From NCBI RefSeq assembly GCF_008271745.1, contig NZ_VKKZ01000024.1, positions 124,001-188,000 on the forward strand: DNA of 64,000 nt, written 5' to 3'. Both the position numbers and the translations under genes were made by a program. The notes beneath the pieces are model-generated. The model saw nothing but the letters and a program-made list of their open reading frames with translations. It was not told the origin of the DNA and did not search any database. Source of the stretch: Rufibacter glacialis (GTDB taxonomy: Bacteria > Bacteroidota > Bacteroidia > Cytophagales > Hymenobacteraceae). This document shows positions 6,105 to 61,181 of the stretch, one piece after another (the stretch's first letter is position 1; each line of letters starts with the position of its first letter).

Positions 6105-6397
6105 GTGCCCCTTGGTTTGGTGAAAGGCGATTATTGAAATTCAGGCAGAACAGATTCTTATAGGGGTAATCCCTTGTGGTTGCCCCTTCTGCGCACCATC
6201 AAGAGCAATCAGAAGGGATTGCCCCCACACCTGAAAAACCTCTAGAAAAGTCAAAAGGAATTCCCCATTTAAAGCCTGTTTTTGGAAAAGCAACCTTTAA
6301 ATAGAAGGTAATGCTCGTGAGTAGAAGCAGAAAAGTGAAGGGACGATTTATTGTTTAGGGGGCGTTTTCAGAAAAACAGAACCAAATTAGCTGGTTT
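6105..6397. other. Intergenic region between convergent gldN and uvrC
   Basis: I see no gene here. The region holds one copy of the 36-bp palindromic repeat family (6267-6302), listed separately. Confidence 0.6.
6267..6302 (+). repeat. 36-bp palindromic repeat, copy 1
   Basis: It has perfect 8-bp terminal arms ATTTAAAG/CTTTAAAT and the family core CCTGTTTTTGGAAAA. It lies between the convergent genes gldN and uvrC, 96 bp beyond the uvrC stop. Confidence 0.7.
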
Positions 6398-8203
6398 CTA
6401 TTTAGCGGTCTGGCCGAAGTACTCCATCAACAGGCGGGTCTTGCTTTTGCCTATCTCCTGTTCCAGTTCCTGCTGCGAAAGCTCCGCGATCTTTTTGACT
6501 GATTTGAACTTGCTAAGCAGTTTCTCTGCGGTGGCTGGTCCTAAGCCTTTGACTTTGGTGAGCTCGGTCTGCAGGGTGCCCGCGTCCCGCAGGGAACGGT
6601 GGAACGTAATCCCGAACCGGTGGGCCTCGTTGCGGAGGCGCTGGATGAGCTTGAGGGTCTCAGACTTTTTATCAATGTAGAGCGGAAGCGTATCACCAGG
6701 GTAGAAGATCTCCTCCAGGCGTTTGGCAATACTGACAATGGCTACCTGACCGTAGATGCCCAGGTCTTTCAGGGCTTTCACGGCCATGCCTAGCTGCCCC
6801 TTGCCCCCGTCAATGATAATGAGTTGGGGCAGTGAGGCCCCTTCTTCTATAAGCCGACGGTACCGGCGGGTCACTACCTCATACATAGAGGCAAAATCAT
6901 CTGGGCCCACTACCGTCTTGATATGGAAGTGGCGGTAATCTTTCTTAGAAGGCTTGGCGTTGCGGAAACATACCATAGAGGCCACCGGGTTGTCTCCCTG
7001 AAAGTTGGAGTTGTCAAAGCACTCAATGTGTTTGGGTAGCTCCGTGAGGCGCAGATCGCGTTTCATGGTTTCCATGATCCTGACCTCATTGCTGTCTTTG
7101 GATTTGTCCTGCATGCTTTCTTTCTCTTTCCGCAGGTAGAGGGCGTTCTTGAGGGAAAGGTTCAGCAGTTTCCGTTTGTCGCCAATCTGGGGCACGGCAA
7201 TGGTGATGTTTTCCAGGGGAAGGGTGAGGCCTTCAATGTTCACCAAAATCTCCTTGGAGTTGCTTTCAAAATCCTGGCGCAGTTGCATGATCATAGACGC
7301 CAGAATCTCCTGGTCCGTCTCTTCCAGTTTCTTCTGCAGTTCCAGCGACTGGGTGCCAATCACTGAGCCGTTCATCACCTTCAGGTAATTGATAAAGGCG
7401 CACTTCTCATTGGAGGTGATGGTGAACACATCAATGTTGGTCAAGGTGTGGCTCACCACCGTAGACTTGGCCTGGAAGTCATCCAGCAGGTCCAGCTTCT
7501 GTTTGAACTGGTGGGCTAACTCATACTGGTAATCAGCGGCGGCGGCAGACATGGCCTCCTTGAAGTAGTTCTTAGCTACCGCCAGGTTTCCTGAAAGGAT
7601 GTTCCTTATCTGCTGAATGTGTTCATTGTATTGGCTCTCGTCATACAAGCCTTCACAAGGGCCTTTGCAGTTGCCAATGTGGTACTCCAGGCACACCTTG
7701 AATTTACCGGCCTCTATATTCGTTTGGCTCAGGTTATAGCTGCAGGTACGCAGAGGGTATAAAGTCCTGATCAGCTCCAGTACCACGTACATGCTGGTGC
7801 CACTGGGGTAAGGTCCAAAGTAGCGGGAACCATCATTAAGCTTATTGCGGGTACTGAGCACCCTAGGGAACCGCTCATTGGTGATGCACAGGTACGGGTA
7901 CGTTTTACCATCCTTTAAAAGGATGTTGTATTTAGGCTGATGCTGCTTGATGAGGTTGTTCTCCAGCAAGAAAGCATCAGCCTCACTGTCTACAATGGTA
8001 AACTCAATGCGCTTGATCTGCGAGATGAGCTTAAGCGTCTTCTTGTTGTGCTGCTTAGAGGAATTGAAATAAGAGCTTACCCGTTTCCGGATGTCAATGG
8101 CCTTGCCCACATAGATGATGCCCTTGTCATCATAGTACTTATAGATGCCCGGGCGATGGGGCAAGTGCTTTAGTTGCTCTCTGATTGTTTCCTCCACAGC
8201 CAT
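6398..8203 (-). CDS. uvrC: Excinuclease ABC subunit C
   Basis: A 601-residue nucleotide excision repair nuclease, the dual-incision subunit that acts with UvrA and UvrB. Domains in order: GIY-YIG nuclease (about 15-95, with PGIYKYYDDKGIIYVGKA), a cysteine-containing segment (CSYNLSQTNIEAGKFKVCLEYHIGNCKGPC), a UVR/UvrB-binding region, the RNase H-like endonuclease half (ECFDNSNFQGDNPVASMVCF, then IIDGGKGQLGMAVKAL and HRFGITFHR) and a C-terminal helix-hairpin-helix pair (VKGLGPATAEKLLSKF). Length and motif order are normal. It begins with ATG, 15 nt downstream of the penicillin-binding protein gene, and is probably cotranscribed with it. Confidence 0.97.
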   Translation of the reverse strand: MAVEETIREQLKHLPHRPGIYKYYDDKGIIYVGKAIDIRKRVSSYFNSSKQHNKKTLKLISQIKRIEFTIVDSEADAFLLENNLIKQHQPKYNILLKDGKTYPYLCITNERFPRVLSTRNKLNDGSRYFGPYPSGTSMYVVLELIRTLYPLRTCSYNLSQTNIEAGKFKVCLEYHIGNCKGPCEGLYDESQYNEHIQQIRNILSGNLAVAKNYFKEAMSAAAADYQYELAHQFKQKLDLLDDFQAKSTVVSHTLTNIDVFTITSNEKCAFINYLKVMNGSVIGTQSLELQKKLEETDQEILASMIMQLRQDFESNSKEILVNIEGLTLPLENITIAVPQIGDKRKLLNLSLKNALYLRKEKESMQDKSKDSNEVRIMETMKRDLRLTELPKHIECFDNSNFQGDNPVASMVCFRNAKPSKKDYRHFHIKTVVGPDDFASMYEVVTRRYRRLIEEGASLPQLIIIDGGKGQLGMAVKALKDLGIYGQVAIVSIAKRLEEIFYPGDTLPLYIDKKSETLKLIQRLRNEAHRFGITFHRSLRDAGTLQTELTKVKGLGPATAEKLLSKFKSVKKIAELSQQELEQEIGKSKTRLLMEYFGQTAK

Positions 8204-8218
8204 AACAATTCTTCTTCC

Positions 8219-10516
8219 TTAGAACGTCTCTTCCTCTACGGTTTGGGGTAGGGTTAGTGTTTGCTCTTGTTTTACGGAATCAGACACGGTAGGTACGGGA
8301 GCGGAATACCCACAATTGATGGAAGTAGATAGCGGTTCTGCCGGTTTAGGGAAAGGCGCCTTTGATACGTTCAACGATTTATCGGCGTACACCTTCTTCA
8401 TGAACAAGGCGTAGATCGGCATGGCCAGTTTATTCCCTTGTCCGTAGGCAGCGCTCCGGAAGTGGATGCTTCGGTCTTCGCCCCCAACCCAAACACCTGC
8501 CGCCAGATCTGGGGTAATCCCCATAAACCAGGCATCAGAATAGTTAGAGGTAGTTCCGGTTTTGGCCCCTATCTCGTTCTTGAGTCCGTAGCGGTGGCGT
8601 AAGCCATAGTAGGCGGTACCACCGCGTACATCCGCGGAGCCTTGCAGCATGTGCACCATCAGGTAGGCTACTTCCTCACTAAGGGCTTCAATGGTCTTGG
8701 GCACGAACTCATGTAACACCGTCCCGTTCTTGTCTTCAATGCGCAGCAGGTACTGCGGCTGGTTCCAGACTCCCTTGTTCACGAACGTGCCATAGGCGCC
8801 TACCATGTCATACAGGGTCACGTCACTGGAACCAAGGCCCAACGCCGGAACAGGATCCAGAGGCGTAGTGATGCCTAACCGTTTAGCGGTAGAAACCACC
8901 ACTTCCGGACCAAGCTTCTTCATGAGGTACGTGGTAATGGTGTTCACCGAGAAAGCCAGGGCCTCCCGTAGGGTGTACCTCCGTCCAGAGTACTTGCCGT
9001 CGCTGTTTTTAGGGGTATAGGGTTTGCCGTCGCCGGTGATGATGGTGACAGGGGCATCTACTACCTCATAGCAGGGAGAATAGCCTTGCTCAATCGCCGC
9101 GGCGTACACAAAGGGTTTGAAGACCGAACCCGGCTGGCGAGCCCCTTGTTTCACGTGGTCATACTTGAAGTACTTGTAGTTGGTACCGCCCACCCAAGCC
9201 TTCACCCTGCCGGTAAGCGGGTCCATGGCCATAAAGCCAGCTTGCAGGTAATGCTTGTAATAGCGCAGAGAATCCATAGGGCTCATGATGGTGTCTCTTT
9301 CCCCTTTCCAGGAGAAGATGCGCATAGGAATCTTATGGTTGAGGTGGTATTTGATGGAGTCTTCGTTGCTGCCATACTGCTCCACCAGGCTTCTGTAGCG
9401 GGCAGTGGTCTTCATCCTTTCCATCAGGAAGCCTTTGATTTCTTTCCCGTTGTCATTAACCCAGGGGTTACGGCCTTTCCATTGCTGGAAGAACTCTTTC
9501 TGCATCACCTTCATGTGTTGCTCCAGAGCCGCCTCCGCGTGTTGCTGCATGCGGGAGTCAATGGTGGTGTAGATTTTGAGGCCGTCTGAATACAGGTCAT
9601 AGCCATTGTCGCGGCACCACTGGGCCAGCGACTTGCCAATCTCCGTCCGGAAATAAGGGGCCAGGCCTTTGTTCTGGTTCTCCACGTTAAAATCCAGCTT
9701 GATGGGCTTCACGCTGGCCGTCTGGAAGGTAGGCTCATCAATGAAGTCATACTTGAGCATCTGGCCCAGCACCGTGTTGCGCCGGTCTTTAGACCGCTCT
9801 GCGCGGGTGACCGGGCTGTAGAAAGAAGGCCCTTTCAAGACACCTACCAGGGTAGCGCCTTCTTCCAGGGTCAATTGCTCAGGGGCTTTGTTGAAGAAGG
9901 TTTTGGCGGCTACCTTAATCCCGTAGGCATTGCTCCCGAAGTCAACGGTGTTCAGGTACATGAGCAGGATCTCCTTCTTGGTGTAAGACCGCTCCAGTTT
10001 CACAGACATGATCCACTCCTTTGTCTTGATGATGAGCATGCGCAGGCCAGGCACATCACTGAGCAGGCCGTTGTTCAAATCATCACGGGTGCGAAACAGG
10101 TTACGGGCCAGCTGTTGGGTCAGCGTACTGGAGCCCCGGTCTTGTTTACCGGTAAGCTTATAGTAAGGAACGGCCAGGGTGCCCTTGAAGTCAATGCCAG
10201 AGTGCTCCTCAAACCGGATGTCTTCTGTGGCGATGAGTGCGTCTACCAGAGATTTAGGCAGTTGCTCATACGTAACGGGGCTGCGGTTCTCACGGAAGTA
10301 CTTTCCTAAGAGCTGGCCATCTTCTGAATACACCTCAGAGGCAAGTTCGCTTTTGGGGTTCTCCAGGGTTTTGAGGTCTGGTAAGTCTCCGAAAAGGTTA
10401 AGGAAGTTGATGCTGACGGCAAAGACGTACAGCAGGAAGAACACAAACCCTCCGGCAAAGAGCAGCCAGAGTGCCGAAATGATTTTCCGGAACCTGGTAT
10501 CAGGCATAGACGACAT
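8219..10516 (-). CDS. Class A penicillin-binding protein (transglycosylase/transpeptidase)
   Basis: About 765 residues. One N-terminal membrane anchor (about 12-37) is followed by a GT51 glycosyltransferase domain with ATEDIRFEEHSGID (catalytic Glu), RGSSTLTQQLARN and the KEILLMYLN segment, then a transpeptidase domain with PGSVFKPFVYAAA (SxxK serine), FSVNT (SxN) and GAKTGTTSNYSDAWFMG (KTG). It polymerises and cross-links peptidoglycan on the periplasmic face, as PBP1A (MrcA-like) enzymes do. I chose the ATG at 10516, one base after the stop of the upstream sprE gene; a TTG at 10537 would overlap that gene. The tail is Pro/Thr/Glu-rich. The link with sprE may reflect envelope assembly. Confidence 0.94.
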   Translation of the reverse strand: MSSMPDTRFRKIISALWLLFAGGFVFFLLYVFAVSINFLNLFGDLPDLKTLENPKSELASEVYSEDGQLLGKYFRENRSPVTYEQLPKSLVDALIATEDIRFEEHSGIDFKGTLAVPYYKLTGKQDRGSSTLTQQLARNLFRTRDDLNNGLLSDVPGLRMLIIKTKEWIMSVKLERSYTKKEILLMYLNTVDFGSNAYGIKVAAKTFFNKAPEQLTLEEGATLVGVLKGPSFYSPVTRAERSKDRRNTVLGQMLKYDFIDEPTFQTASVKPIKLDFNVENQNKGLAPYFRTEIGKSLAQWCRDNGYDLYSDGLKIYTTIDSRMQQHAEAALEQHMKVMQKEFFQQWKGRNPWVNDNGKEIKGFLMERMKTTARYRSLVEQYGSNEDSIKYHLNHKIPMRIFSWKGERDTIMSPMDSLRYYKHYLQAGFMAMDPLTGRVKAWVGGTNYKYFKYDHVKQGARQPGSVFKPFVYAAAIEQGYSPCYEVVDAPVTIITGDGKPYTPKNSDGKYSGRRYTLREALAFSVNTITTYLMKKLGPEVVVSTAKRLGITTPLDPVPALGLGSSDVTLYDMVGAYGTFVNKGVWNQPQYLLRIEDKNGTVLHEFVPKTIEALSEEVAYLMVHMLQGSADVRGGTAYYGLRHRYGLKNEIGAKTGTTSNYSDAWFMGITPDLAAGVWVGGEDRSIHFRSAAYGQGNKLAMPIYALFMKKVYADKSLNVSKAPFPKPAEPLSTSINCGYSAPVPTVSDSVKQEQTLTLPQTVEEETF

Positions 10517-10517
10517 G

Positions 10518-13097
10518 CTATTGGTAATTTTTTTCAAAGAAATCTACGTACTGCGCGATATCTCCTAACTTTCTAAGTAAAGTCAAGTTAGCTTCAGTTA
10601 TCACAAAGGTAGCAAATTTCGGGCCTTTTAAATTGGCTAAAGGAGAAGTGCGGGAAGCTTGTAGTTTGGCGTACTGTTGGGCAGACTGGAAATCGGGCAG
10701 CGCCCGCACCAGCAGCAGACTGGTACTGTCTTTAAAGGCCACCCGGTCCAGGGTAAGGTTCTTTTTAGGGTGGAAACGTTGGTTATACGTACCGTAAGCG
10801 GTCATGAGCTGGCGCAGAGGCAGGCTGTCACCAGTATGTACCACCACAAACAGGTGGGGTTTGTTGCGTTCAGTCTTGTAAGTGGGGGCTTCTTCGGGGC
10901 GCACCACGGGGGCAGCCGGTGCAGGCGCTTTGGCCAGTTCCCCGGATTCATAGCGCAGGTACAGGTTCATGAACTCACGAGCCTGGGGTTGCAAGGGGCT
11001 CTCTGGGTACTGGATCAGGAATTTCTCCATAGCCGCCCTAAACACCGCCGGCGACTGGGTGCGCCCGGTCACCAAAGCCCTAAGGAAAGCGCTTTGGTCC
11101 TGGATGTCGTTTTGGGGGTATTTTTGGGAAAGGGAGGCCAAAACGGCTAGCGTCTCTGGGTACTTCTCTTTTTCATACAGGGCATACGCAGAATCATACA
11201 GCGCATGGGCCGCCTTGTTTTCTACCGAGTAGGTCCGCAGAAAATCAGGCTGGTCAATAAGGCGGCTGTATTTAGAAGTAGGGAACCGCTGTTTCAGCGT
11301 CTGGGCATAAGTGCCCGCCTTGTCTGATTGCTGTTGGGCCTGGGCCATCACGTACAGGCTGTAGTACACTTCGGAGGCATGGGCAGAGGCAGGGAACCGC
11401 TCCAGGAGCTGTTGGAATGTTTCAGCGGCTTTCTGCGGCTCCCGCAGCCGCTGCTGGTAAATGTTGCCTAAGGTGAACAGCGCTTCCTCAATGCGTTTGT
11501 CTGAGGCCTGCTTTTGGGCCGGGGTCACCGGAATAGCGGCTAAATATTCTGCCTGCTTTTGGGCGGTGGCCGCGGCCTGGGCGCTGCTGTCTACGGTAGT
11601 GCCGGTTACCAAACCAGCCGTAAGCGGGGTAGCGCCAGAAGTGGTGGTGATTCGGCGCCAGTTGTCTTGCAGGGGACGTTCGCCCCAGGTGCGCAAGAAG
11701 TCATTGCGGGCGGTGGAGAGGGCGGCCGGGTTGTCAAAGTACCAGGTACTGCCTTGGGTGGCGCTGCCCCCTATGGGAAGCGTGGCGGTCTGGGTGCGGG
11801 GGCCAGCGGTAGCGTTGGCGGCAGCCAGCACAGCGGCGGCGGCTTGTTCCTTCTCCCGGTTAATCTGCTCGGCTACCCGTTGGGCACGCTCGGCAGCCCC
11901 TAATTTGGCGAGGGCCTGTAAACTGTCTTCAGACCGGATGATCTCTATTTGTTGGGTGAAGGCGGTCAGTACGGTGCGCCGGTCTGCCAGTTCTTCATAC
12001 CCCAGGGTAGTAGGCGGCAGGAATTGGAGGGTGCTGTCATAATAGGCCTGGGCCAGTTTGTACTGCTGCAGGTTCTCATAATAGATCTGACCGGCCAACA
12101 GATAAGAATAGGCTTTCTGGGCCCGGTTAGTGCTGGAAGCCGCCGCAGATTTCTGAAGTAGGGCCAGCGCCTCTGGGTACTCCTTCTGCCGAAGCTCCAG
12201 TTTAGCCAGGTCATAGTAGATCTTGTCCAGGTACTCCCGGTTTTTATCGTCGCGGGTGAGTTTGAGCAGGAACTCCTCTACCTTCTGCTGATCCTCTACG
12301 TCTTTCAGTTCAGTGACCTGGGCCTGGTTCAGGTGGGCGTAGAAGCCCAATTCATAGGGAGGGCGCTTCTTGAGCACTTTGGCAAACTGGGTATAAGCCT
12401 TGGCGTCTTGGTTCGTGGCCTGGTACAATTGCCCCAGGATGAACCGCAACCTGGCTTCCCGGTCTCTTTCATCTGTGAAGGGAATGGCCTTTTCCAGGTT
12501 CTCTATCACCAGGGGCAGGTTGTTCTGGATTTGGGCCAGTTGGGCGCGGGTCAGCAGCAGTTCACGGCCATTGGTCTCGTTCATGCGCTCCTTCCGGAAC
12601 TGTTCTGAGATGGAGAAGGCCTGGTCATAGTCTTTCTGCCGCATGGCCAGGCGCATCATCCAGATCATGGCCTCATGGCGGGCGTGGCGGTCTGGGCTGG
12701 TGGACTGCACAAACCGGAAGGTCTTGGCGGCCTCGGCGTCTTCTCCCTGGTAGTAACGGGCCTTGCCGATGAGTACGTAACAATCATCTATCCACCGTGA
12801 TTTTGGGTGGCGCGCGATAGGGAAAGAGGCCCGCTTGATCACTTCATCCAGATCAGGCGCCAGGCTTCTCAACAGCGTGGTGTCCAGCGGCGGCAGAATG
12901 TCCAGAATGCGGTTGTAGTCATACACGTGGGCGGCTTCCAGGCGGGCCTCTACGGCCTCCATTTTCGCACGCGCCAGAAAATACCCGTTGAAGCGGGCGT
13001 TTACGTTGCGGTACGCCCGGCCCAAAGGCTTGTCAGGAGCGCAACCGGCTATGGTGCCCAGAAAGAGGAGGAACAGAAGAAATCGTGTCAGCTTCAA
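10518..13097 (-). CDS. sprE: T9SS/gliding tetratricopeptide lipoprotein SprE (PorW)
   Basis: An 859-residue lipoprotein with a signal peptide and the lipobox TIAGC (Cys19). It opens with YRNVNARFNGYFLARAKME, the N-terminal motif of SprE/PorW. Multiple tetratricopeptide repeats follow through residues 100-400 and again at about 530-760, separated by an Ala/Thr/Gln-rich low-complexity linker at about 400-530. SprE/PorW is required for type IX secretion and is thought to link the outer-membrane translocon with the periplasmic machinery. The start is a TTG, chosen because it gives the full lipoprotein signal; I see no in-frame ATG near it. It is the first gene of a minus-strand operon with the penicillin-binding protein and uvrC. 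Confidence 0.9.
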   Translation of the reverse strand: MKLTRFLLFLLFLGTIAGCAPDKPLGRAYRNVNARFNGYFLARAKMEAVEARLEAAHVYDYNRILDILPPLDTTLLRSLAPDLDEVIKRASFPIARHPKSRWIDDCYVLIGKARYYQGEDAEAAKTFRFVQSTSPDRHARHEAMIWMMRLAMRQKDYDQAFSISEQFRKERMNETNGRELLLTRAQLAQIQNNLPLVIENLEKAIPFTDERDREARLRFILGQLYQATNQDAKAYTQFAKVLKKRPPYELGFYAHLNQAQVTELKDVEDQQKVEEFLLKLTRDDKNREYLDKIYYDLAKLELRQKEYPEALALLQKSAAASSTNRAQKAYSYLLAGQIYYENLQQYKLAQAYYDSTLQFLPPTTLGYEELADRRTVLTAFTQQIEIIRSEDSLQALAKLGAAERAQRVAEQINREKEQAAAAVLAAANATAGPRTQTATLPIGGSATQGSTWYFDNPAALSTARNDFLRTWGERPLQDNWRRITTTSGATPLTAGLVTGTTVDSSAQAAATAQKQAEYLAAIPVTPAQKQASDKRIEEALFTLGNIYQQRLREPQKAAETFQQLLERFPASAHASEVYYSLYVMAQAQQQSDKAGTYAQTLKQRFPTSKYSRLIDQPDFLRTYSVENKAAHALYDSAYALYEKEKYPETLAVLASLSQKYPQNDIQDQSAFLRALVTGRTQSPAVFRAAMEKFLIQYPESPLQPQAREFMNLYLRYESGELAKAPAPAAPVVRPEEAPTYKTERNKPHLFVVVHTGDSLPLRQLMTAYGTYNQRFHPKKNLTLDRVAFKDSTSLLLVRALPDFQSAQQYAKLQASRTSPLANLKGPKFATFVITEANLTLLRKLGDIAQYVDFFEKNYQ

Positions 13098-13227
13098 CGT
13101 TGAGTCAGAAAGTTGGAATATGAGTAGAACTGCGCGCCGCCCATTTTATTTCATGCCGCTTTTTCTTAAAACGAACCATAAACGGGAAAGCGCGTACCAA
13201 GTGCTTTGGCCTTTGGCTGGGTAAAAA

Positions 13228-13315: not shown

Positions 13316-13413
13316 TTTGCGATTTGGACCCGTTTTGGTGAAAATACGCGAAAAACGGCGGAAACTATTCTATATAAAGCAAATCTTTCTGCCCAAGGTG
13401 CGCTGCCGTTTAG

Positions 13414-19424: not shown

Positions 19425-19460
19425 GTTTTGCCGCCCTTTTTAATAAAAGGGTGGCAAAAC
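19425..19460 (+). repeat. 36-bp palindrome in the pafA leader
   Basis: The arms GTTTTGCCGCCCTTTT and AAAAGGGTGGCAAAAC form a 16-bp stem with one G-U pair and the loop TAAT. It starts GTTT, ends AAAC and is exactly 36 bp, so I place it tentatively in the dispersed repeat family although its inner bases differ. It ends 21 nt before the pafA start. Confidence 0.6.
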
Positions 19461-24631: not shown

Positions 24632-24757
24632 ATTGCTGGTTGTTGATTGTTCCCGAATAGAGGTTATGTATAAAGATATAACTATCCTATAAAGCGAGTT
24701 TCCTTTTTATACGCTGTTTTCAGGCCACTTTCCCAAAAACAACTAACAATCAACAAC
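24632..24757. repeat. Inverted repeat flanking the nnr upstream region
   Basis: TGGTTGTTGATTGTT at about 24636-24650 is matched on the other strand by AACAATCAACAACCA at about 24743-24757. Further CAACAACCAAC copies follow directly, giving a short direct-repeat patch up to about 24777. Confidence 0.45.
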
Positions 24758-27447: not shown

Positions 27448-27483
27448 GTTTCCTGCCTGTTTTCAGGAAAAGGAAGCGTTTAC
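27448..27483 (+). repeat. 36-bp palindromic repeat, tandem copy a
   Basis: It starts GTTTCC and contains CCTGTTTTCAGGAAAA; the inner arms CGTTTCCT/AGGAAGCG pair imperfectly. Copy b follows after 12 bases. Confidence 0.6.
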
Positions 27484-27495: not shown

Positions 27496-27531
27496 GCTTT
27501 AGGGCTGGTTTTCTGGAAATTGGCTTAAAAC
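27496..27531 (+). repeat. 36-bp palindromic repeat, tandem copy b
   Basis: It has TTTAGGGCTGGTTTTCTGGAAA in two parts, with the core GGTTTTCTGGAAA, and ends GGCTTAAAAC. Confidence 0.6.
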
Positions 27532-28623: not shown

Positions 28624-28659
28624 TATTTCAGGCCTGTTTTAAAGGAAAACGCCTTAAAC
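28624..28659 (+). repeat. 36-bp palindromic repeat downstream of sdaAA
   Basis: It begins TATTTC, holds GGCCTGTTTTAAAGGAAAAC and ends GCCTTAAAC. It starts 13 nt after the sdaAA stop. Confidence 0.65.
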
Positions 28660-28683
28660 AGACCTTTACAACCAGAAGCTTTC

Positions 28684-31769: not shown

Positions 31770-31805
31770 GTTCACCGGGTGTTTTCTGGAAAAGGCGCTT
31801 GAAAC
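31770..31805 (+). repeat. 36-bp palindromic repeat between convergent genes
   Basis: It begins GTTCACC, holds GGTGTTTTCTGGAAAAGGC and ends CTTGAAAC. It ends 3 bp before the stop of the convergent gene at 31809. Confidence 0.65.
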
Positions 31806-33246: not shown

Positions 33247-34138
33247 TTTATAGTTCAATTGTTAGCAATTCTACAACGAATATTATCTCTTTTTAAAGAT
33301 GTGCTAAGATACAAAAAATATATTTACTAATTTCTTAATTTATTTGCTTGGTTATTGTATTGTTAGCATATTTGAAATTGTTATTTTATCAAATTCGTAA
33401 AAATTTATTTACGGGGGTAGATACTTAGAGGGGAAGGGCAAAGATAGTGCATATGTCATACCAATGCTACTGCCCCGGTGGTACTCTTTTGACATAGCGG
33501 GCATTTGGTAGTAGTCAGAGGCTCCTACATCCTGATCGTGAGGTGGCTGAAGCAGGAGTAAGTGCAAGTTTTGTCGTTTTTGCCTGCAGTGCATACGTTC
33601 TTTGGACAATTACTGGTAAAACCTTCTCAAAGGCAGCGTGAGCGCCTTAAGAGTTGGCTGAATCCTTGTTAGTGGGTGTTTCTCCCTTGCCTTACTCTTA
33701 GTGGGTAACTACCGCCTATTCCCTTCCAGCCTTGACTAAGCAGAATAAACTGCCAGAGTGTACGGCTCAGAAGTATATTGAGTTCATACCAGCAGGAAAG
33801 TTGCCAGGGTAATAACGGCGTTTGGGCACGCTTCTTCTGAAAGAAGCCAAAAATATTCTCATGGGCCTTAGGCTGCCCTGGCTGGTGTCTTGGCCCCAGG
33901 TGATTGGCAGAGAATAATCTGTGGCTAAAAGGCTTTTACAGGTTTTACTTTGCTAAAAAATAGATACGATCATTACTAGATAAGAAGGTTTTACACCGGT
34001 TTTGTTAAAACGCTGATAAAACGCTTTTCATTTAACCATACCTCCCCGATATTGGGACGCCGTTCCTAAGTGGGGCGGCCCTACAGTAACAGAGGCTATG
34101 GCGGCCCTTGCTTGCCTGGCTTCGCAACCCTATTCTTC
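33247..34138. other. 892-bp gene-free region between lrp and serB-serA
   Basis: The first 170 bp are very AT-rich (promoter-like for lrp). The rest has no gene I can support. The minus strand has an open stretch of about 88 codons without a proper start around 33675-33940, and another short frame at 33409-33609 with clustered charged and aromatic residues. These could be decayed coding sequence. A candidate 35-bp repeat lies at 33988-34022. Confidence 0.4.
33988..34022 (+). repeat. Possible member of the 36-bp repeat family
   Basis: 35 bp, starting GTTTTACACC and ending GATAAAAC, with the inner pair GGTTTTGTTAAAAC. It is more diverged than the other copies. Confidence 0.4.
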
Positions 34139-36069: not shown

Positions 36070-36113
36070 AGCTGTTTTTGGCCTGTTTCTTCCGGAATGG
36101 GTTAAAAACAGCT
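36070..36113 (+). repeat. 36-bp palindromic repeat with extended stem after serB-serA
   Basis: The 36-bp core at 36074-36109 (GTTTTTGGCC ... GTTAAAAAC) lies in a perfect 10-bp outer stem AGCTGTTTTT/AAAAACAGCT. It is followed by TCTTTTA, so it may also terminate the serB-serA transcript. Confidence 0.65.
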
Positions 36114-39248: not shown

Positions 39249-39284
39249 GTTTAAACGCCTTTTCCTGAAAAATAGCCCTTAAAC
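39249..39284 (-). repeat. 36-bp palindromic repeat, reverse orientation
   Basis: It starts GTTTAA and ends TTAAAC, and on the minus strand it reads GGGCTATTTTTCAGGAAAAG in its core. It lies between lutB and the thioredoxin-fold gene. Confidence 0.65.
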
Positions 39285-40580: not shown

Positions 40581-40764
40581 ATCTGTTCTAATGCTGCCGT
40601 CCAACCAACCAGTGTGGCTCAGAGGCGTTCTTTTATTGTAAGAAGCTAAGGAATTCCACTGCAGCTTCATATTGGTAGGTAAATTCTGTTTAGCAGGTGT
40701 ATTTGGGAAAACGCCCACGAAACCAATGCTGTACGGAAGATAAAGAATCCCGCCGCCAGTAACA

Positions 40765-42553: not shown

Positions 42554-42589
42554 GTTTTTCGCCTGTTTTTGCCAAAAGTCAGGCAAAAC
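42554..42589 (+). repeat. 36-bp palindromic repeat downstream of ispF
   Basis: It starts GTTTTTCGCCTG and ends CAGGCAAAAC, so the outer arms pair, with the core TTTTTGCCAAAAGT. It lies 12 bp beyond the ispF stop. Confidence 0.7.
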
Positions 42590-43504: not shown

Positions 43505-43544
43505 CTATTTAGGGCCTGTTTTTCAGGAAGCAGGCCCTAAATAG
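43505..43544 (+). repeat. 36-bp palindromic repeat with the best stem (40 bp)
   Basis: Perfect 14-bp arms CTATTTAGGGCCTG/CAGGCCCTAAATAG surround TTTTTCAGGAAG. The 36-bp core is 43507-43542. It ends 1 bp before the stop codon of the M16 peptidase gene. Confidence 0.85.
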
Positions 43545-44922: not shown

Positions 44923-44958
44923 GTTTAGGGCCTGATTTCTGGAAATCTGACGCTAAAC
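44923..44958 (+). repeat. 36-bp palindromic repeat in the M16 leader region
   Basis: It starts GTTTAGGGCCTG and ends GACGCTAAAC, with the core ATTTCTGGAAAT. It lies between the divergent M16 and E1 genes, just inside the candidate M16 promoter. Confidence 0.7.
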
Positions 44959-47030: not shown

Positions 47031-47077
47031 TTTGCGCTTTGGGGCTATTTTAGGTAAAACAGCCCCAAAGCGCAAAC
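47031..47077 (+). repeat. Long-stem repeat-family element after the E1 gene
   Basis: The arms GTTTGCGCTTGGGGCT and AGCCCCAAAGCGCAAAC pair over 16 bp with one bulged base. The inner 36 bp (47036-47071) fits the repeat family, with GGCTATTTTAGGTAAAAC as core. It starts 9 nt after the E1 stop and could end the transcript. Confidence 0.65.
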
Positions 47078-47779: not shown

Positions 47780-48118
47780 ATGCAGTGGCATCCTATCACC
47801 AGTACAGAGCAAATTGAGCAGATCAGGGAAGAATCAAAAGGACAACCGGTGGTTATCTTCAAGCACAGCACCTCGTGCTCCATCAGTGCCACGGCCAAAA
47901 GCCGGTTAGAGCGCCAATGGGACACCGCCGGGCTTGACCAGGTGAAGTCGTACTACCTTGACCTTTTGAGCTACCGGCCTGTCTCCAACCAGATAGCCCA
48001 ATCGTTTGAGGTAAAGCATGAGTCGCCGCAGTTGCTGTTCATCAAAGACGGGCAGTGTCAATACCATGGTTCGCATTTGGGCATCAGCTTACAGGAAGTA
48101 AAGAAGCTGGTTTCCTAA
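47780..48118 (+). CDS. ytxJ: YtxJ-type monothiol bacilliredoxin
   Basis: A 112-residue thioredoxin-fold protein of the YtxJ (BrxC) family. The motif VVIFKHSTSCSISATAKSRLE carries a single cysteine (Cys33) in a T-S-C-S-I-S site. SPQLLFIKDGQ supplies the cis-Pro region. In Firmicutes such proteins remove bacillithiol from proteins, and many Bacteroidota make bacillithiol, so a similar role is likely. It has its own terminator. Confidence 0.88.
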   Translation: MQWHPITSTEQIEQIREESKGQPVVIFKHSTSCSISATAKSRLERQWDTAGLDQVKSYYLDLLSYRPVSNQIAQSFEVKHESPQLLFIKDGQCQYHGSHLGISLQEVKKLVS

Positions 48119-48129
48119 AAATAGCCCGG

Positions 48130-48174
48130 AAATCCCGCAGAAGGTGAAGCAAGAATCCTTTTGCGGGATTTTTT
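48130..48174 (+). terminator. Terminator after ytxJ
   Basis: The arms AAATCCCGCAGAAGG and CCTTTTGCGGGATTT pair with one mismatch around a 12-base loop, and are followed by TTTAT. It lies 11 nt after the ytxJ stop. Confidence 0.88.
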
Positions 48175-48192: not shown

Positions 48193-48228
48193 GTTTCGTT
48201 TTATATTATTGAAAAACAGGCCATAAAC
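48193..48228 (-). repeat. 36-bp palindromic repeat, reverse orientation, diverged
   Basis: On the minus strand it starts GTTTATGGCCTGTTTTTC and ends AAAACGAAAC. One arm is well kept and the other has drifted. Confidence 0.55.
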
Positions 48229-55898: not shown

Positions 55899-55929
55899 AA
55901 AAGAGCCGCCTCTACAGGGCGGCTCTTTT
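55899..55929 (+). terminator. Terminator after the PorE-like gene
   Basis: The 12-bp arms AAAAGAGCCGCC and GGCGGCTCTTTT, with a 7-base loop and a trailing T run, lie 22 nt after the stop. Confidence 0.9.
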
Positions 55930-55945
55930 TGTTTGCCGGCTCTCG

Positions 55946-55980
55946 GTTTAAGTCCTGTTTCAAGAAAAGGGCCTTGAAAC
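55946..55980 (+). repeat. 36-bp-family palindromic repeat (35 bp)
   Basis: It starts GTTTAAGTCCTG, holds TTTCAAGAAAAGG and ends GCCTTGAAAC. It lies 17 bp after the terminator of the surface cassette. Confidence 0.65.
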
Positions 55981-56039
55981 AGGTTGAAAGCCAGAAAGGG
56001 TTTAGCAGCGTACATATAATATACTAACGTTCCAGTCCC

Positions 56040-57110
56040 ATGCAGCCCAATGATGCCAACGCCGCCTTGCCCGTAGACCAGCGCCCCTTCCGGGTACTGC
56101 TGATTGCGGGCTCTAACCGCCGCCAGTACAACTGCCCCGGCGTAGACTCCAAAGCCCGGGCCCTCATGCTGAGAATGGCCGAACAACTGCCGCCTCAATG
56201 GGAGATTGACATTGAAGACATAGGCAACGTGTATGGGCGTGCGCGCATCCAGAGTTGCAATGCCTGCGTGAGTACCAGCATGGCGCTGTGCGTGTGGCCC
56301 TGCAACTGCTACCAGAAGAATGATGCTGCTGAGCCAGACCTCCTGTGGGATCTGGATATGTACGCCCGCCTGGACATGGCCGATGCCTGGGCGATTATAG
56401 GCCCCATTAACTGGTACGCCCCTAGCGCTAACCTCAAGCTCATGTTTGACCGCCTGGTGTGCATGAACGGCGGCAACCCCAAAGAAGGTCTTATTGAGCA
56501 CAAGAACCCAGAGATAGCCGCCAAGCTGGAGCATTCTGAACAATGGCAGGAACTCAGCCAGAACCACCTGGAAGGCCGCACCGCGGCTTTCTTCTGCTAC
56601 GGTGACGCCGGGGGCGATGAATTGGATGAAGCCGGAAAACCTAAGATCCTGCGGCACAAACAGTATTTCAACCCCGAGGAAGAGCCTTTTGAGAACAACC
56701 GCGACGCCTACGCCCCCTTGGTGTGGCAATGCCGGTACGGCGGCGTGGAAGTGCCAGACTCTTTGTGGCGGTATGAGGAGTTTGGCGTAGACGAGAAATA
56801 CTCAGACAACCAGGCGGAGCACCTGGTGGAGCGAAAAGAGGTGATGCAGCATTTTGACAACTGGGTACAGGAATTCGCCACGTTTGTGGAGGCGAAGGGC
56901 AAGGTATTGCCCGGGAAATACCGGGCCTATGGGTATGAGCCGCCCAAGAACCGGTGGCATGAACTGAAAAGCGCCTTTAGGGACGCCCGTATGCGGGTGG
57001 GCTTGCCGCCCAAAGGCTCCTCGCCAGATCTGCAGCAGCAACAGGGCATCAACCAGGATGTGACCCTCAGGCCCGGCAAATCTGAGCGGGACCAAGGGCA
57101 CGATCTATAA
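56040..57110 (+). CDS. NAD(P)H-dependent FMN reductase-like protein
   Basis: A 356-residue flavodoxin-fold protein. The N-terminal FRVLLIAGSNRRQYNCPGVDSKARAL resembles the FMN-phosphate loop of NADPH-dependent FMN reductases. CNACVSTSMALCVWPCNCY is an unusual cysteine cluster (six Cys in about 20 residues), and IIGPINWYAPSANLKLMFDRLVC is the second flavin-site segment. A C-terminal extension of about 150 residues (YGYEPPKNRWHELKSAFRDAR) is longer than in simple FMN reductases. The substrate is unknown. Confidence 0.75.
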   Translation: MQPNDANAALPVDQRPFRVLLIAGSNRRQYNCPGVDSKARALMLRMAEQLPPQWEIDIEDIGNVYGRARIQSCNACVSTSMALCVWPCNCYQKNDAAEPDLLWDLDMYARLDMADAWAIIGPINWYAPSANLKLMFDRLVCMNGGNPKEGLIEHKNPEIAAKLEHSEQWQELSQNHLEGRTAAFFCYGDAGGDELDEAGKPKILRHKQYFNPEEEPFENNRDAYAPLVWQCRYGGVEVPDSLWRYEEFGVDEKYSDNQAEHLVERKEVMQHFDNWVQEFATFVEAKGKVLPGKYRAYGYEPPKNRWHELKSAFRDARMRVGLPPKGSSPDLQQQQGINQDVTLRPGKSERDQGHDL

Positions 57111-57111
57111 A

Positions 57112-57141
57112 AAAAGGCCTCTGCACACGCAGAGGCCTTTT
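57112..57141. terminator. Bidirectional terminator
   Basis: Perfect 13-bp arms AAAAGGCCTCTGC/GCAGAGGCCTTTT with loop ACAC, placed between convergent genes. It starts 1 nt after the stop at 57110. Confidence 0.92.
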
Positions 57142-57172
57142 CAAGGCTATTTTCTGAAAAAAGGCTGAAAAC
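57137..57172 (+). repeat. 36-bp-family palindromic repeat beside a terminator
   Basis: It starts CTTTTCAAGGCTATTTTC and ends GGCTGAAAAC. It shares its first bases with the terminator and its last base with the stop codon of the DUF4136 gene. Confidence 0.5.
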
Positions 57173-57795
57173 TACCGGCGGGCGGTGGCTCTCTCGTCAG
57201 TTTGAGGCGGGAACTTGGCCAGGATGCTGGAAACGATCAGCTGTACTTTCTCATCGGTCAGGGATCTTTCGGTGGCGGCGGTTTCACTGCTTCCGCGCCA
57301 GATCAGTTCATTGGATTTGGCATCTACCACATCCAGAATCAAGGTGCCTTGCTGGTAATCCTGTAGCGTGGTGGTATTGTAGAGGCGGTTGTAGGTATAA
57401 GCGTAGCGGTAGCCGTACCAGTACCCGAAGCCAATAGAAGGAACGCTCACAAAATCAGGGCGCAGGCGTTGCTGGTTCTCCACGGTAAAATCATACGCCA
57501 GCAGCATGTCTGGCTTCTCAGAAGCCGCTGCTTTCTGGAAACCCCGGCGCTGCATCTCGGTCTCTACCGCGTTTTTGACCCGTTTATCTAAAAACGTAGT
57601 ATATCTGCGGTTTGTAGAGTCTTTGGCTACCGGTTGGTCCTGGTACCAGCGCCAGGTCTTGTAGGCTTGGAAATTAGTGCTCTTGTCAAAGTCGGTGGCC
57701 GCGTTGTAGGTAGTGGCGCACCCCGAGAAACCTATCACCAGTAACCCCATCATGGCCCTCGTTACCCACTTCGCTATCTTATTGAATGGTCTCAT
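57172..57795 (-). CDS. DUF4136-type lipoprotein
   Basis: A 207-residue lipoprotein from the ATG at 57795, with the lipobox GFSGC (Cys26). The start of the mature part, TTYNAATDFDKSTNFQAYKTWRWY, and the end DVVDAKSNELIWRGSSETAATE are typical of DUF4136 lipoproteins, common in Bacteroidota and of unknown function. An upstream in-frame extension to 57918 lacks a signal peptide and is not supported. Confidence 0.82.
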   Translation of the reverse strand: MRPFNKIAKWVTRAMMGLLVIGFSGCATTYNAATDFDKSTNFQAYKTWRWYQDQPVAKDSTNRRYTTFLDKRVKNAVETEMQRRGFQKAAASEKPDMLLAYDFTVENQQRLRPDFVSVPSIGFGYWYGYRYAYTYNRLYNTTTLQDYQQGTLILDVVDAKSNELIWRGSSETAATERSLTDEKVQLIVSSILAKFPPQTDERATARR

Positions 57796-57994
57796 TAGTT
57801 TGTAAAGTTTAAGTGTAGTTGAAGAATGAGAAAGAACCTCCTCTTCAGGGTCTCCTTTGCCTTTTGAACTACCTGAACAGCTGAAAGGAATGTTCCTGAA
57901 GATGTTGCTTTCGTGCAAGAAGAACGCAAAAACTATGCCTTAATTATACCGTTTGGTTTATTTCAAGCTGAATCTGAAAAACATTTTTTACTCC

Positions 57995-58030
57995 GTTTTC
58001 AGAGGTTTTTTGAGAAAAGAGGGGAAAAAC
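57995..58030 (+). repeat. 36-bp-family palindromic repeat, diverged
   Basis: It starts GTTTTCAGAGGTTTTTTG and ends AGGGGAAAAAC, exactly 36 bp. It lies between the DUF4136 gene start and the gcvP terminator. Confidence 0.5.
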
Positions 58031-58031
58031 A

Positions 58032-58062
58032 AAAACGCCTGTGGAAGCTCCACAGGCGTTTT
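58032..58062 (-). terminator. Terminator after gcvP
   Basis: Perfect 14-bp arms AAAACGCCTGTGGA/TCCACAGGCGTTTT with a 3-base loop. On the minus strand a T run follows the stem. It lies 23 nt beyond the gcvP stop. Confidence 0.9.
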
Positions 58063-58085
58063 CTAAACAGGATTATCGTGTTCGC

Positions 58086-61004
58086 TTAAACGGCTTTCAT
58101 CTCTTCACCTTGCTCATTATAAGCTTCAATAGGGGCGCAGCTGCATACCAGGTTACGGTCACCGTAGGCGCTGTCAATCCGACTCACGGTTGGCCAGAAC
58201 TTGGCGGTGCGGGTATACGGCATTGGGTACACAGCCCGCTCGCGGGAGTAAGGCAACGTCCATTCTTCAATCAATACCACGTGCGCTGGGTGCGGCGCGT
58301 TTTTGAGCAGGTTGTTTTTCTGATCAGCGGCACCTTCCTCAATCTCCCGGATTTCCTCCCGGATAGAGATCATGGCATCGCAGAAACGGTCCAGCTCTTC
58401 TTTGCTCTCGCTCTCCGTGGGCTCCACCATCAAGGTGCCCGCCACTGGGAATGATACGGTAGGCGCATGGAAACCATAGTCCATCAAACGCTTCGCGATG
58501 TCTTCTACTTCTACGCCGGCCTTTTTGAAAGAGCGGCAGTCTAAGATCATCTCATGGGCGCAGCGGCCTTTGGAACCAACGTACAACACCGGGTAATGGG
58601 CTTCCAGACGCGCCTTGATGTAGTTCGCGTTCAGGATCGCCATTTTAGTGGCCTCGGTCAAGCCTTCGCCGCCCATCATGTTGATGTAAGCGTAAGAGAT
58701 TGGCAGAATGCTGGCGCTACCCCAAGGAGCCGCCGATACCGCGTTGATCGCCTGAGGGCGCTCTAAGTCTACTACCGCGTGGCCGGGCAGGAAAGGAGCC
58801 AGGTCCGCTACTACACCAATGGGACCAACGCCTGGTCCACCGCCGCCGTGCGGGATACAGAAGGTCTTGTGCAGGTTCAGGTGGCACACGTCCGCGCCAA
58901 TGTTGGCCGGGGAAGTCAGGCCTACCTGGGCGTTCATGTTGGCACCGTCCATGTAGACACGGCCGCCGTTCTGGTGAATGATCTCGCAGATCTCAATGAT
59001 GCTTTCCTCGTACACGCCATGGGTAGACGGATACGTCACCATGAGGCAAGACAGGTCATCTTTGTGCTGCTCGGCTTTCGCTCTCAGGTCCGCTACGTCA
59101 ATGTTTCCTTTCTCATCGCACTTCACAATCACCACTTTCATACCGGCCATCACCGCGGAGGCAGGGTTGGTGCCGTGCGCCGAAGACGGGATCAGAGAGA
59201 TGTTACGGTGATGGTCGCCGCGCGATTCGTGGTAGGCTCTGATCACCATCAGACCCGCGTATTCGCCTTGGGCGCCGGAATTAGGCTGCAAGCTCATGGC
59301 GGCAAAACCCGTCACCTCGCATAACCATGCTTCCAGGTCCTGGAAGATCTGGGCGTAGCCTTGGGCCTGGTCTGCCGGAGCGAAGGGGTGCATTTGCCCA
59401 ATCTCTGGCCAGGTCACCGGAATCATCTCAGCGGTGGCATTCAGCTTCATGGTGCAGGAACCCAATGGAATCATGCCGTGGGTCAAAGAGAAGTCTTTGT
59501 TTTCTAAGTACTTCATGTAGCGCAGGATCTCGCTCTCTGAGTGGTACTTGTTGAACACCTCGTGCTGCAGGTAAGGAGACGTCCGGATCAAGGCTTCTGG
59601 CCAAGTGATCTCGGTTTCTTCCGGAATGGTGTCCAGTTCCAGCGTGGCATCCGGTTTACCGGCTACTTTCGCGAAAACGGCCAGGATATCCTTCACCTCG
59701 TCCAGATCGGTGTTCTGGTTCAGGGAAATCCCGATGTTGTGGTTTTCTCCGAAATAACGGAAGTTGATCTGAGCGGCTTCGGCTTCCTGACGGATGGCTT
59801 GCTGCAACTCAGCGCTCTCGATGCGGAGGTTCAGCGTATCAAAGTAATTCTCGTTCAATTGCTCAAAGCCTAAACGCTCCAGGCCTTTCTCCAGAATCTG
59901 AGTCAGGCTGTGGATGTTCAGGCCGATGTACTTCAGGCGGCGCGGTCCATGATACACGGCATACATACCGGCCATCACGGCCAGCAATACCTGCGCGGTA
60001 CAGATGTTGGAAGTCGCTTTCTCTCTCCGGATGTGCTGCTCACGCGTCTGCAGAGCCATACGGTAGGCTTTCTGCCCAAAGGCATCCTGAGACAACCCGA
60101 TGATGCGGCCTGGGATTGAGCGCTTGTACTCGTCTTTGGTGGCGAAGAAACCGGCGTGCGGTCCGCCGTAGCCCATGGGCACGCCAAAGCGCTGCGAAGA
60201 ACCCACCACTACGTCGGCCCCCATCTCACCCGGTGATTTCAACAGGGTCAAGCTAAGCAGGTCGGCAGCCACGGCCACCGGTACACCCGCCTCATGGGCC
60301 TGGGAGATAAAGTCTGTGTAGTCAAACACCTCACCGTCGGCGGCCGGGTATTGCACCAGGGCCCCGAACAGGGTGTCGTCTTGGCGGTCCATCTGGCGGT
60401 GATCACCTACTACCAGTTCAATGCCCAGGGGCGTGGCGCGGGAAACCAACACGTCAAGGGTTTGCGGCAGAATCTGGTCAGACATATAGTAGCGGTTGGC
60501 GTTTTTGCGGGCGCCTTTGCGCAAAGAGTATTGCAGGTTCATGGCCTCCGCGGCAGCGGTGGCTTCATCCAGCAGAGAAGCGTTGGCGATGGCCATGCCG
60601 GTGAGGTCAATGATCACGGTCTGGTAGTTGATCAACGCCTCTAGACGGCCCTGGGCAATCTCGGCCTGGTACGGCGTGTATGCGGTATACCAGCCGGGGT
60701 TCTCAAAGATGTTGCGCTGGATCACCGGGGGCAGAATGGTGTCATGGTACCCCAGCCCGATGTAGGATTTATAGAGTTTGTTCTGCTTGGCGATCTTGGC
60801 GAATTTCCGGAGGAAATCACGTTCCGTCAAGGCGGCCGGCAGGTTCAGGGGTTTCTTGAGGCGGATAGCCGGCGGAACCGTCTCATCTATCAATTGGTCT
60901 AAAGACGCTGCCCCAATGGTTTGCAGCATTTCCTGCATCTGCTCCTTGACAGGGCCATTGTGGCGCTCCTTGAAGATATCGGCAGGTTTGGTTTTAAAGA
61001 TCAT
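58086..61004 (-). CDS. gcvP: Glycine dehydrogenase (decarboxylating), P protein
   Basis: A 972-residue PLP enzyme of the glycine cleavage system; the two ancestral halves are joined in one chain. N-terminal half: [21 protein letters not shown] and [19 protein letters not shown]-terminal half: [31 protein letters not shown] and the PLP lysine in [19 protein letters not shown]. It decarboxylates glycine and passes the aminomethyl group to lipoylated H protein. The gcvT and gcvH genes are not adjacent. No glycine riboswitch is seen upstream. Confidence 0.98.
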
Positions 61005-61072
61005 TTATCGCTGAGATTAAGGTAGATAAGTTTCTTTTGTCTGTGAACAAACGTTAGAAGCAAATGATTTAA

Positions 61073-61080
61073 CAAAAGTA
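61073..61080 (-). promoter_or_regulatory. Candidate -7 box for gcvP
   Basis: On the minus strand TACTTTTG matches TAnnTTTG, about 70 nt before the gcvP start. The -33 element is not clear. Confidence 0.4.
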
Positions 61081-61145
61081 CAGGTTAAAATTCACTAATT
61101 ACAGGGGCAGCCCTTAAATTGCGCCACAGGCTGTGGAGAGTTATG

Positions 61146-61181
61146 GTTTTTGCCTTGTTTTGGGAAAAACAGCCGTGAAAC
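61146..61181 (+). repeat. 36-bp palindromic repeat between divergent genes
   Basis: It starts GTTTTTGCCTTGTTTTGG, continues GAAAAACAGCC and ends GTGAAAC. It lies 25 bp before the start of the oxidoreductase gene. Confidence 0.65.

Follow-up and report, generated by a model that had tools for sequence, protein, structure and literature searches.

Abundant palindromes in bacterial genomes are usually explained as selfish repetitive extragenic palindromes (REPs), terminators, or uptake tags. Here, we describe a family of 36-bp palindromes in Rufibacter glacialis, starting from a 64,000-nucleotide stretch of its genome (assembly GCF_008271745.1, contig NZ_VKKZ01000024.1, positions 124,001 to 188,000, forward strand), which is referred to as the window. 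The family was largely frozen throughout the genus, was constrained at single bases even inside genes, and had about one copy per occupied intergenic gap. Our data suggested that the palindrome is probably the recognition site of a putative genus-specific, sequence-specific double-stranded-DNA-binding protein, whose role would most likely be architectural. Dispersed double-stranded protein sites of this general type include the Fis sites, matS, and the Noc sites. The known abundant nucleoid-protein sites are shorter and less specific than the Rufibacter palindrome, which was present in thousands of copies and usually once per gap.

Uptake sequences have clade-specific dialects and are scarce in foreign DNA, and the Rufibacter palindrome was similar in both respects. 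DNA uptake sequences and uptake signal sequences also reach about 2,000 copies, and an even spacing has been claimed and disputed for them (PMC1939737, in part). In contrast, the Rufibacter site was a dyad of about 44 bp that was located mostly outside genes, and lone half-sites were near background in two of four genomes. REPs and REPtrons are likewise short, are found in hundreds to thousands of copies per genome, and are mostly extragenic, often downstream of genes, with some intragenic copies (PMC8266576 and PMC3733652, in part). Unlike REPs, the Rufibacter palindrome had no unpaired tag, had symmetric 16-bp arms with sequence-fixed boxes, and was not clearly tied to the REP-associated Y1 transposase (RAYT); in addition, its copies were mostly fixed in position, usually single in a gap, and constrained at the base level inside open reading frames (ORFs). 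HIP1 of the cyanobacteria is another very abundant dispersed palindrome, and its function is described as unsettled; however, HIP1 is an 8-mer discussed in connection with orphan methyltransferases, whereas the Rufibacter site covered about 44 bp and had variable center and stem bases (PMC4390886, in part).

Length, layout and distribution of the palindrome

A profile was seeded with the consensus of the 18 palindromes listed in the initial annotation and trained on R. glacialis (464 kb, comprising the window and 20 sampled stretches) and on the relative G006 (400 kb). Sites were defined by a score of at least 16, and shuffled DNA was scored with profiles trained on the same real DNA. All 18 listed palindromes were found where they had been reported and scored at least 17; the coordinates of 15 were the best fitting, and the remaining three fitted better when shifted by one base, to 28625, 33987, and 55945. 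The count of about 18 was too low for the family as a whole, as the window contained 33 sites, several of the additional 15 being weak. The R. glacialis sample yielded 262 sites compared to 2.0 in dinucleotide-shuffled DNA, and the G006 sample yielded 153 compared to 0.0, with intermediate scores nearly absent. The density in R. glacialis was 483 copies per Mb, which extrapolates from the 464-kb sample to about 2,500 copies per genome.

The length of 36 bp held as well. The skeleton GTTT-N9-TTT-N4-AAA-N9-AAAC had 269 exact matches in R. glacialis and 1,134 in G006, whereas a control skeleton that was two bases longer had 0 and 1, respectively. A 35-bp form with a 3-nucleotide (nt) center was a real minority, accounting for 32 of 196 joint hits in R. 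glacialis and 3 of 165 in G006. Flank statistics extended the dyad to about 44 bp, wTTCY-GTTTTnGGCCTGTTTT-nnnn-AAAACAGGCCnAAAAC-RGAAw. Each arm consisted of two direct repeats, C-Y-G-T-T-T-T, placed eleven bases (one helical turn) apart. Specifically, the base preferences of the outer box in G006 (positions -1 to 5) were C63 T49 G93 T93 T99 T98 T85, and those of the inner box (positions 10 to 16) matched them with C80 T70 G83 T90 T99 T99 T98.

A 4-nt center was present in 159 of 165 joint hits in G006, 187 of 196 in G014, 141 of 172 in G011, and 152 of 196 in G000; the main minority center in these four genomes was 3 nt. Such a fixed center would fit a protein clamped on double-stranded DNA better than it would fit a hairpin loop. 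Lone strong half-sites in G006, G014, G011, and G000 numbered 15, 15, 26, and 38, compared to 12, 8, 16, and 12 in shuffled DNA. Because the four boxes formed a helix-phased dyad with a mostly fixed geometry, binding by a dimer of dimers was suggested. As the site is a dyad, the "reverse" label that some copies had been given was nearly meaningless, and no clear preference was seen between the two orientations in tandem gaps (43:37 and 59:52). The consensus was shifted in one lineage: position 6 was T in 94% of the G014 copies and 91% of the G007 copies, and no base exceeded 46% at this position in five other species. The shift would fit co-evolution of the sites with a putative binder.

With a stricter pattern (up to 3 mismatches), matches were found in all 16 genus genomes, at 14 to 978 forward matches each; the counts differed between species because the sharpness of the consensus differed. 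Five of 23 other genomes of the order were also matched, four of them once and G025 11 times. The skeleton was at chance level in 41 other genomes of the family, none of which had more than 1 match, and was found 186 to 1,134 times in the four genus genomes of the same search. Among the at least 120 stretches listed in an exact scan of named records, all were from Rufibacter species or Sabulibacter ruber. Profile densities were 400 to 520 per Mb in the seven genus genomes for which at least 100 kb was sampled and 300 to 600 per Mb in the nine species for which the sample was only 20 to 40 kb, and the total was 1,106 copies in about 2.46 Mb. DNA from sister genera, which was used only as a negative control (23 loci, 116 kb), contained sites in two loci (L010 and L011), both of which had been selected by pattern. 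The array is probably older than the radiation of the genus Rufibacter. The window gave 0 Rfam matches at the gathering score, and no description of the Rufibacter palindromes was found in the open-access literature as judged by titles and the beginnings of abstracts, subscription journals being outside the scope.

Repeats that matched these patterns were noticed in two genomes from other families of the order. The 11 matches in G025 (L009 and ten other places) were very similar 35-mers of the type GTTTTTAGCCTATTTTGTCAAAAAACTGGTAAAAC, 10 of them in one orientation, and their box layout was in common with the Rufibacter palindrome. G133 had 15 skeleton matches and 8 control matches; several contained a GTTTTGGGCAnnTTTTGCCCAAAAC-like repeat, and they probably represent a separate palindrome family.

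Constraint on single bases and symmetry of the arms

The base-level divergence of the palindrome was examined in 57 ungapped ortholog pairs from G007 and G014; 22 of 79 pairs had been dropped due to gaps or more than 12 differences. Positions 2-6, 11, 14-15, 21-23, 26, and 31-35 differed in 0 to 7% of the pairs, and positions 8 and 29 differed in 7 to 9%, compared to 22% for the flanks. Differences were found in 12 to 19% of the pairs at positions 9, 10, 27, and 28 and in 16 to 30% at positions 7, 12, 13, 16, 18, 19, 24, 25, and 30. Taken together, the other stem positions (7, 9, 10, 12, 13, 16, 24, 25, 27, 28, and 30) differed in 12 to 26%. This contrast within the element was independent of the filtering of pairs. 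Judging from the divergence data, the contact-like bases are under purifying selection.

The palindromes had been described as lying outside genes without exception. This was correct for the 18 listed copies and incorrect for the family, as a site at 11109-11144, for example, was located inside an 859-amino acid (aa) gene. Coding and intergenic DNA did not carry the palindrome equally often, and only 81 of the 1,106 copies lay deep in confident genes. (Genes were called with a crude custom caller based on codon usage, so gene starts were rough.) In six genomes (1,328 kb), deep-coding sites numbered 72 at scores of at least 16 and 15 at scores of at least 30, compared to 0.7 and 0 in codon-shuffled DNA. 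We examined four coding sites, three of which were conserved cases picked among the 15 copies with scores of at least 30.

The 11109 site occupied the same codon positions in 15 of the 16 genus genomes, with scores of 22.6 to 35.0, and G013 had no site. Eight outgroup homologs aligned without gaps at this place, and none carried the site. The third bases of codons at site positions 3, 15, and 33 were identical in all 15 genomes, including places where the amino acid differed (Leu/Ile and Gln/Gly), and the third base at position 36 was identical in 14. The third bases at positions 6, 12, 18, and 30 were variable. Over the whole TPR gene, 5% of the codons had an invariant third base, and the pattern of the site was found in 1 of 917 codon windows. 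Sites were also present in all 16 genomes in a glycoside-hydrolase-77 (GH77) gene (scores of 22.5 to 36.2) and in a 1,150-aa gene that had no Pfam match (scores of 26.2 to 45.1). In both cases, the third bases at positions 1, 4, 16, 22, and 34 were the same in 15 or 16 of the 16 genomes, and just outside the site the invariant third positions amounted to 8% (GH77) and 0% (1,150-aa gene). The remaining third bases inside the site of the 1,150-aa gene varied (6 to 14 of 16), as expected.

The symmetry of the arms had been attributed to selection on structure, which proved to be half right. Arm covariation was detected over all copies (pair 6-31, 0.46 versus 0.29) and came mainly from a class of perfect palindromes. 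In copies with up to 12 pairs, the complementarity of the arms was no higher than column composition predicted; G000 copies with up to 13 pairs kept some covariation at pair 5 (0.50 versus 0.40). Restriction to imperfect copies itself slightly lowers pair counts, so the finding of little covariation is approximate. One covariation run included loci fetched with the perfect pattern, which inflates the perfect class, and the following counts leave these loci out. We observed 39 perfect palindromes among 483 copies when 0.4 were expected, as well as 28 copies with 15 of 16 pairs when 3.6 were expected. The perfect class numbered 27 versus 1.8 expected in G006, 11 versus 0.1 in G011, 13 versus 3.4 in G014, and 2 versus 0 in R. 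glacialis. In 69 perfect copies, the pairing of the flanks fell off gradually, from 0.72 at the fourth base (expected, 0.28) to 0.45 at the eighth base (expected, 0.26); thus, pairing reached about 8 to 10 bp into unconserved flanks. Template switching between the arms of a palindrome is a documented mechanism (PMC8794818, in part), and locus-specific pairing that extends into the flanks is what it predicts. Hence, the symmetry seems to be partly written by mutation, with the boxes held by selection, and conserved boxes together with template-switch correction explained it better than selection on structure. The arm covariation and the compensatory-looking changes between orthologs had initially looked like strong proof of an RNA stem, and we rejected them as such because they came mainly from the discrete perfect class.

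Placement, inheritance and the copies of the window

As the numbers for gaps of 100 to 400 bp indicated, a single copy per gap was much more frequent than in simulated placement. Convergent gaps with 0, 1, and 2 or more copies numbered 27, 82, and 18 (simulated, 55, 41, and 31), tandem gaps numbered 215, 258, and 26 (simulated, 278, 153, and 68), and divergent gaps numbered 97, 65, and 0 (simulated, 109, 42, and 11). The placement rule was not more than one copy per gap, rather than always one. Copies were overrepresented on the side of stop codons and in convergent gaps. Within tandem gaps of 150 bp or more, they leaned to the stop end, and only 2 of 383 were found in the last tenth before the start codon.

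Spacing was more regular than expected in some of the contiguous regions. The coefficient of variation (CV) was 0.85 in G014 and 0.80 in G007, compared to 1.24 and 1.22 for random intergenic placement; in the window, it was 1.03 compared to 1.26 +- 0.18, a weak effect in the same direction. Coding sites tended to be far from other sites. Specifically, 41 deep-coding copies with scores of at least 20 had a mean distance of 1,456 bp to other copies, compared to 1,088 bp for random coding positions, and 0 of 500 draws gave a value as large (p <= 0.004 at three thresholds, after spans of more than 9 kb had been removed following inspection). An earlier test on means that kept the spans of more than 9 kb gave no signal, owing to site-free stretches.

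Inheritance of position was followed in the 24- to 64-kb part of the window, for which orthologous gaps from as many as 15 species were available. The 16 copies examined had 107 orthologous gaps; a copy lay no more than 20 bp from the corresponding offset in 78 of these, and 94 had a copy at any offset, compared to 10 of 63 orthologous gaps whose R. glacialis counterpart was copy-free. The copies at 27448, 33819, 40688, and 48193 had no same-offset counterpart in the orthologous gaps compared. In the close pair G007 and G014, 79 of 100 G014 sites could be mapped (21 were unmapped), and the palindrome was recognizable in nearly all of them. One mapped site was strongly diverged, two rows had large gaps in poorly aligned flanks, and no precise empty site was found among the 79. 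All listed copies of the window, with "listed" referring to the initial annotation, and several of the additional ones were as follows (coordinates without strand).

6267-6302: listed copy; score 32.0, 13 of 16 arm pairs
6353-6388: additional copy; score 30.7, 9 pairs
11109-11144: copy within the coding sequence of the 859-aa TPR protein (ORF 10518-13097, minus strand); score 33.8
13148-13183: additional copy; score 24.5
13321-13356: additional copy; score 32.8
19425-19460: listed copy; score 27.7, 15 pairs
24716-24751: additional copy; score 22.8
27448-27483: listed copy, weak; score 19.3, same offset in 0 of 5 orthologous gaps
27496-27531: listed copy; score 32.2, same offset in 5 of 5 orthologous gaps
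28625-28660: listed copy (given as 28624); score 24.4, same offset in 5 of 5
31770-31805: listed copy; score 27.5, same offset in 3 of 3
33987-34022: listed copy (given as 33988); score 18.8, same offset in 5 of 5
36074-36109: listed copy; score 26.4, same offset in 4 of 5
39249-39284: listed copy; score 32.2, same offset in 1 of 1
40688-40723: additional copy; score 26.5, same offset in 0 of 1 orthologous gap
42554-42589: listed copy; score 28.1, same offset in 4 of 4
43507-43542: listed copy; score 33.9, same offset in 7 of 7
44923-44958: listed copy in a divergent gap; score 31.2, same offset in 10 of 10
47036-47071: listed copy with pairing that extends into the flanks; score 36.3, 15 of 16 pairs, same offset in 10 of 10
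48098-48133: additional copy overlapping the end of ORF 47780-48118; score 23.6
48193-48228: listed copy, weak; score 17.0, same offset in 0 of 14
55945-55980: listed copy (given as 55946); score 28.0
57137-57172: listed copy in a convergent gap; score 26.0
57995-58030: listed copy beside a separate terminator-like hairpin; score 26.3, same offset in 11 of 12
59654-59689: weak site in the gcvP coding sequence; score 22.1, with scores of 20.9 to 27.6 at the corresponding place in 12 of the 16 species
61146-61181: listed copy located 25 bp upstream of the start codon of an alanine-dehydrogenase-family ORF; score 37.6, same offset in 13 of 15

In G011, a 62-kb stretch (C24, about 257 to 320 kb; L271:17364 to L274:19522) contained no site. 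Nine of its proteins were tested: three were clearly of a mobile type (a conjugative coupling protein/T4SS, a phage tape measure protein, and baseplate J), and the other six were a Toprim protein, a helicase, a SusC/SusD-like pair, an Omp85 protein, and one protein without a match. The stretch probably consists of one or more integrated mobile elements, and acquired DNA probably lacks the array. A second site-free stretch in C24 of G011 (23.7 kb; L262:10561 to L263:14228), with 40% G+C in a region of 51% G+C, is perhaps another acquired island.

A proposed architectural protein and other explanations

The suggestion that the palindromes serve as nucleoid or protein binding sites was supported by the conserved contact pattern, the geometry, and the wobble constraint. 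In the mechanism that we propose, the site would be a rigid dyad of about 44 bp with four CYGTTTT-like boxes, whose arms would face each other across 4 bp. The putative binder would be a tetramer or a dimer of dimers located mostly at gene boundaries, and 2,000 to 2,500 sites per chromosome, usually not more than one per intergenic gap, would form an array, with coding-sequence sites located away from other sites. The array may organize the nucleoid or limit the spread of supercoils or transcription, and template switching between the arms during replication would largely account for the perfect hairpin symmetry of some copies. With not more than one copy per gap and with coding sites located between other sites, a regulon would be a less fitting explanation than an architectural or boundary role. 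A more specific idea, which we regard as possible yet somewhat doubtful, is that Rufibacter has a dedicated chromosome-organizing system, in which a genus-specific protein would occupy about 2,500 four-box dyads, about one per 2 kb and usually one per gene boundary, in an insulator- or nucleosome-like manner; where no gap is available, coding sequence would be adapted to hold a site, and sites and binder would co-evolve. To our knowledge, no insulator- or nucleosome-like array of this kind has been described in bacteria. If a protein reads the sites, Rufibacter would offer a tractable test of regular chromosome boundaries in bacteria, with the sites readable from the sequence of every species. 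The family is also a natural data set on the perfection of palindromes by template switching.

Several results weighed against an architectural protein. The information content was 28 to 52 bits, depending on the species, when by our own arithmetic about 2,500 sites need 11 to 12 bits, and therefore another constraint or a shared origin is likely. The inner box was only partly conserved, as positions 12, 13, and 16 differed in 18 to 25% of the G007-G014 pairs, and the asymmetry between position 16 (23%) and its mirror position 21 (4%) was unexplained. Since the flanks were unfiltered, the dropping of 22 pairs favored the element over the flanks. The geometry was looser in G011 and G000, the latter also having the excess of lone half-sites (38 versus 12). 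The regular spacing of G007 and G014 counts as one observation because they are sister species and the regions corresponded, and two G011 stretches were irregular, with CVs of 1.56 versus 1.49 and, when the island was included, 2.98 versus 1.48. In addition, two site-free stretches of about 10 kb each were present in native-looking DNA of G014 and G007. The three conserved coding cases were not a random sample, so they demonstrate that the constraint exists and not how frequent it is. In the GH77 site, nearly all third bases were conserved, not the critical ones alone, which made this case less specific, and the gcvP site at 59654, which showed no reduced synonymous variation, is possibly coincidental. 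Finally, a weak excess of G:U pairs in 3'-proximal copies left room for an RNA effect.

The palindrome could instead mark kin DNA for natural transformation and accumulate by molecular drive, as in Neisseria and Haemophilus. We consider this unlikely, even though its restriction to the genus, its lineage dialects, the copies in coding sequence, the absence from a probable acquired island, and the lone half-sites of G000 are all in its favor. The copy number is also similar to the 1,965 copies of one known case; however, known uptake sequences are short and nonpalindromic, about 10% occur as inverted repeats, and 35 to 65% are inside ORFs (PMC1939737, in part), compared to the small deep-coding share of the Rufibacter palindromes. 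In G006 and G014, the number of lone half-sites was close to that in shuffled DNA; moreover, the center was mostly fixed. A ComEC-family match was found in all 16 genus genomes and also in 6 of 7 outgroups and was therefore uninformative on uptake. A hairpin that acts in RNA, as a terminator, an mRNA 3'-end stabilizer, or a 5'-UTR stabilizer, seemed improbable. The enrichment toward stop codons and in convergent gaps and the excess of perfect 16-bp arms would agree with such a role, as would the excess of G:U over A:C in 3'-proximal tandem copies (334:265, p 0.005, uncorrected; 292:275 elsewhere), which is weak and would also result from transcription-linked mutation. However, the flank logo had no U-tract or T-run, 65 of 162 divergent gaps carried a copy, conserved copies were present inside ORFs, imperfect copies had little covariation, and the center was mostly fixed. 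Nor did the palindrome replace classical terminators. In an alignment of 57981-58090, a terminator-like hairpin was separated from the palindrome by 1 to 3 bases in each of the 10 species displayed, and by a crude finder, classical terminators were present in 80 of 166 convergent gaps with a palindrome versus 25 of 64 without and in 94 of 409 tandem gaps with a palindrome versus 52 of 499 without, a comparison confounded by the short operon gaps among the copy-free ones.

The idea of a REP-type element, in which mobile palindromes are spread by RAYT (Y1) transposases, was very unlikely in light of the mostly fixed, inherited offsets. The search for a transposase gene that had been proposed gave a mixed outcome: Y1_Tnp (PF01797) was detected in 15 of 16 genus genomes, many of the ORFs being about 180 to 200 aa, but G007 had no match at an E value of 0.001 and still had 511 forward and 523 reverse pattern matches. 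The copy number and intergenic bias were REP-like. Two of 20 Y1 loci (similar proteins from G006 and G014) had copies within 121 bp on both sides and 4 of 20 had copies within 170 bp, a weak flanking signal. On the other hand, no GTAG- or CGTC-type tag was present, the flank logo being a weak symmetric TTCY/RGAA; 152 of 153 copies were distinct in G006; no mapped site was precisely empty; and a conserved coding copy was present without a protein insertion. It was least probable, to the point of being nearly negligible, that the palindromes are functionless quasipalindromes perfected by template switching. This process would account for the perfect class and for pairing into unconserved flanks, and it is likely true as a part of the explanation; as the whole, it would leave the conserved boxes, the frozen wobble positions, and the one-per-gap placement unexplained, and the constraint on coding sites counts against it. 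A recognition site for a DNA-binding protein is the explanation that we favored.

A few further observations concern these subjects. The comparison of G:U with A:C was rejected as a test for RNA function, as it was weak, dependent on the species, and confounded by transcription-linked mutation. The Y1 transposase (RAYT-like) genes of loci L185 to L204, many of them encoding 181 to 183 aa, were of several divergent types and were scattered singly. The terminator-like hairpin of the window at 58032-58062 had A- and T-runs and compensatory-looking changes in 10 species. In G010 (L222), the gap between gcvP and the alanine-dehydrogenase-family gene contained an insertion of about 230 bp that was absent in 15 other aligned species, and this insertion carried a perfect second palindrome and a CCTGTGAGGTC hairpin.

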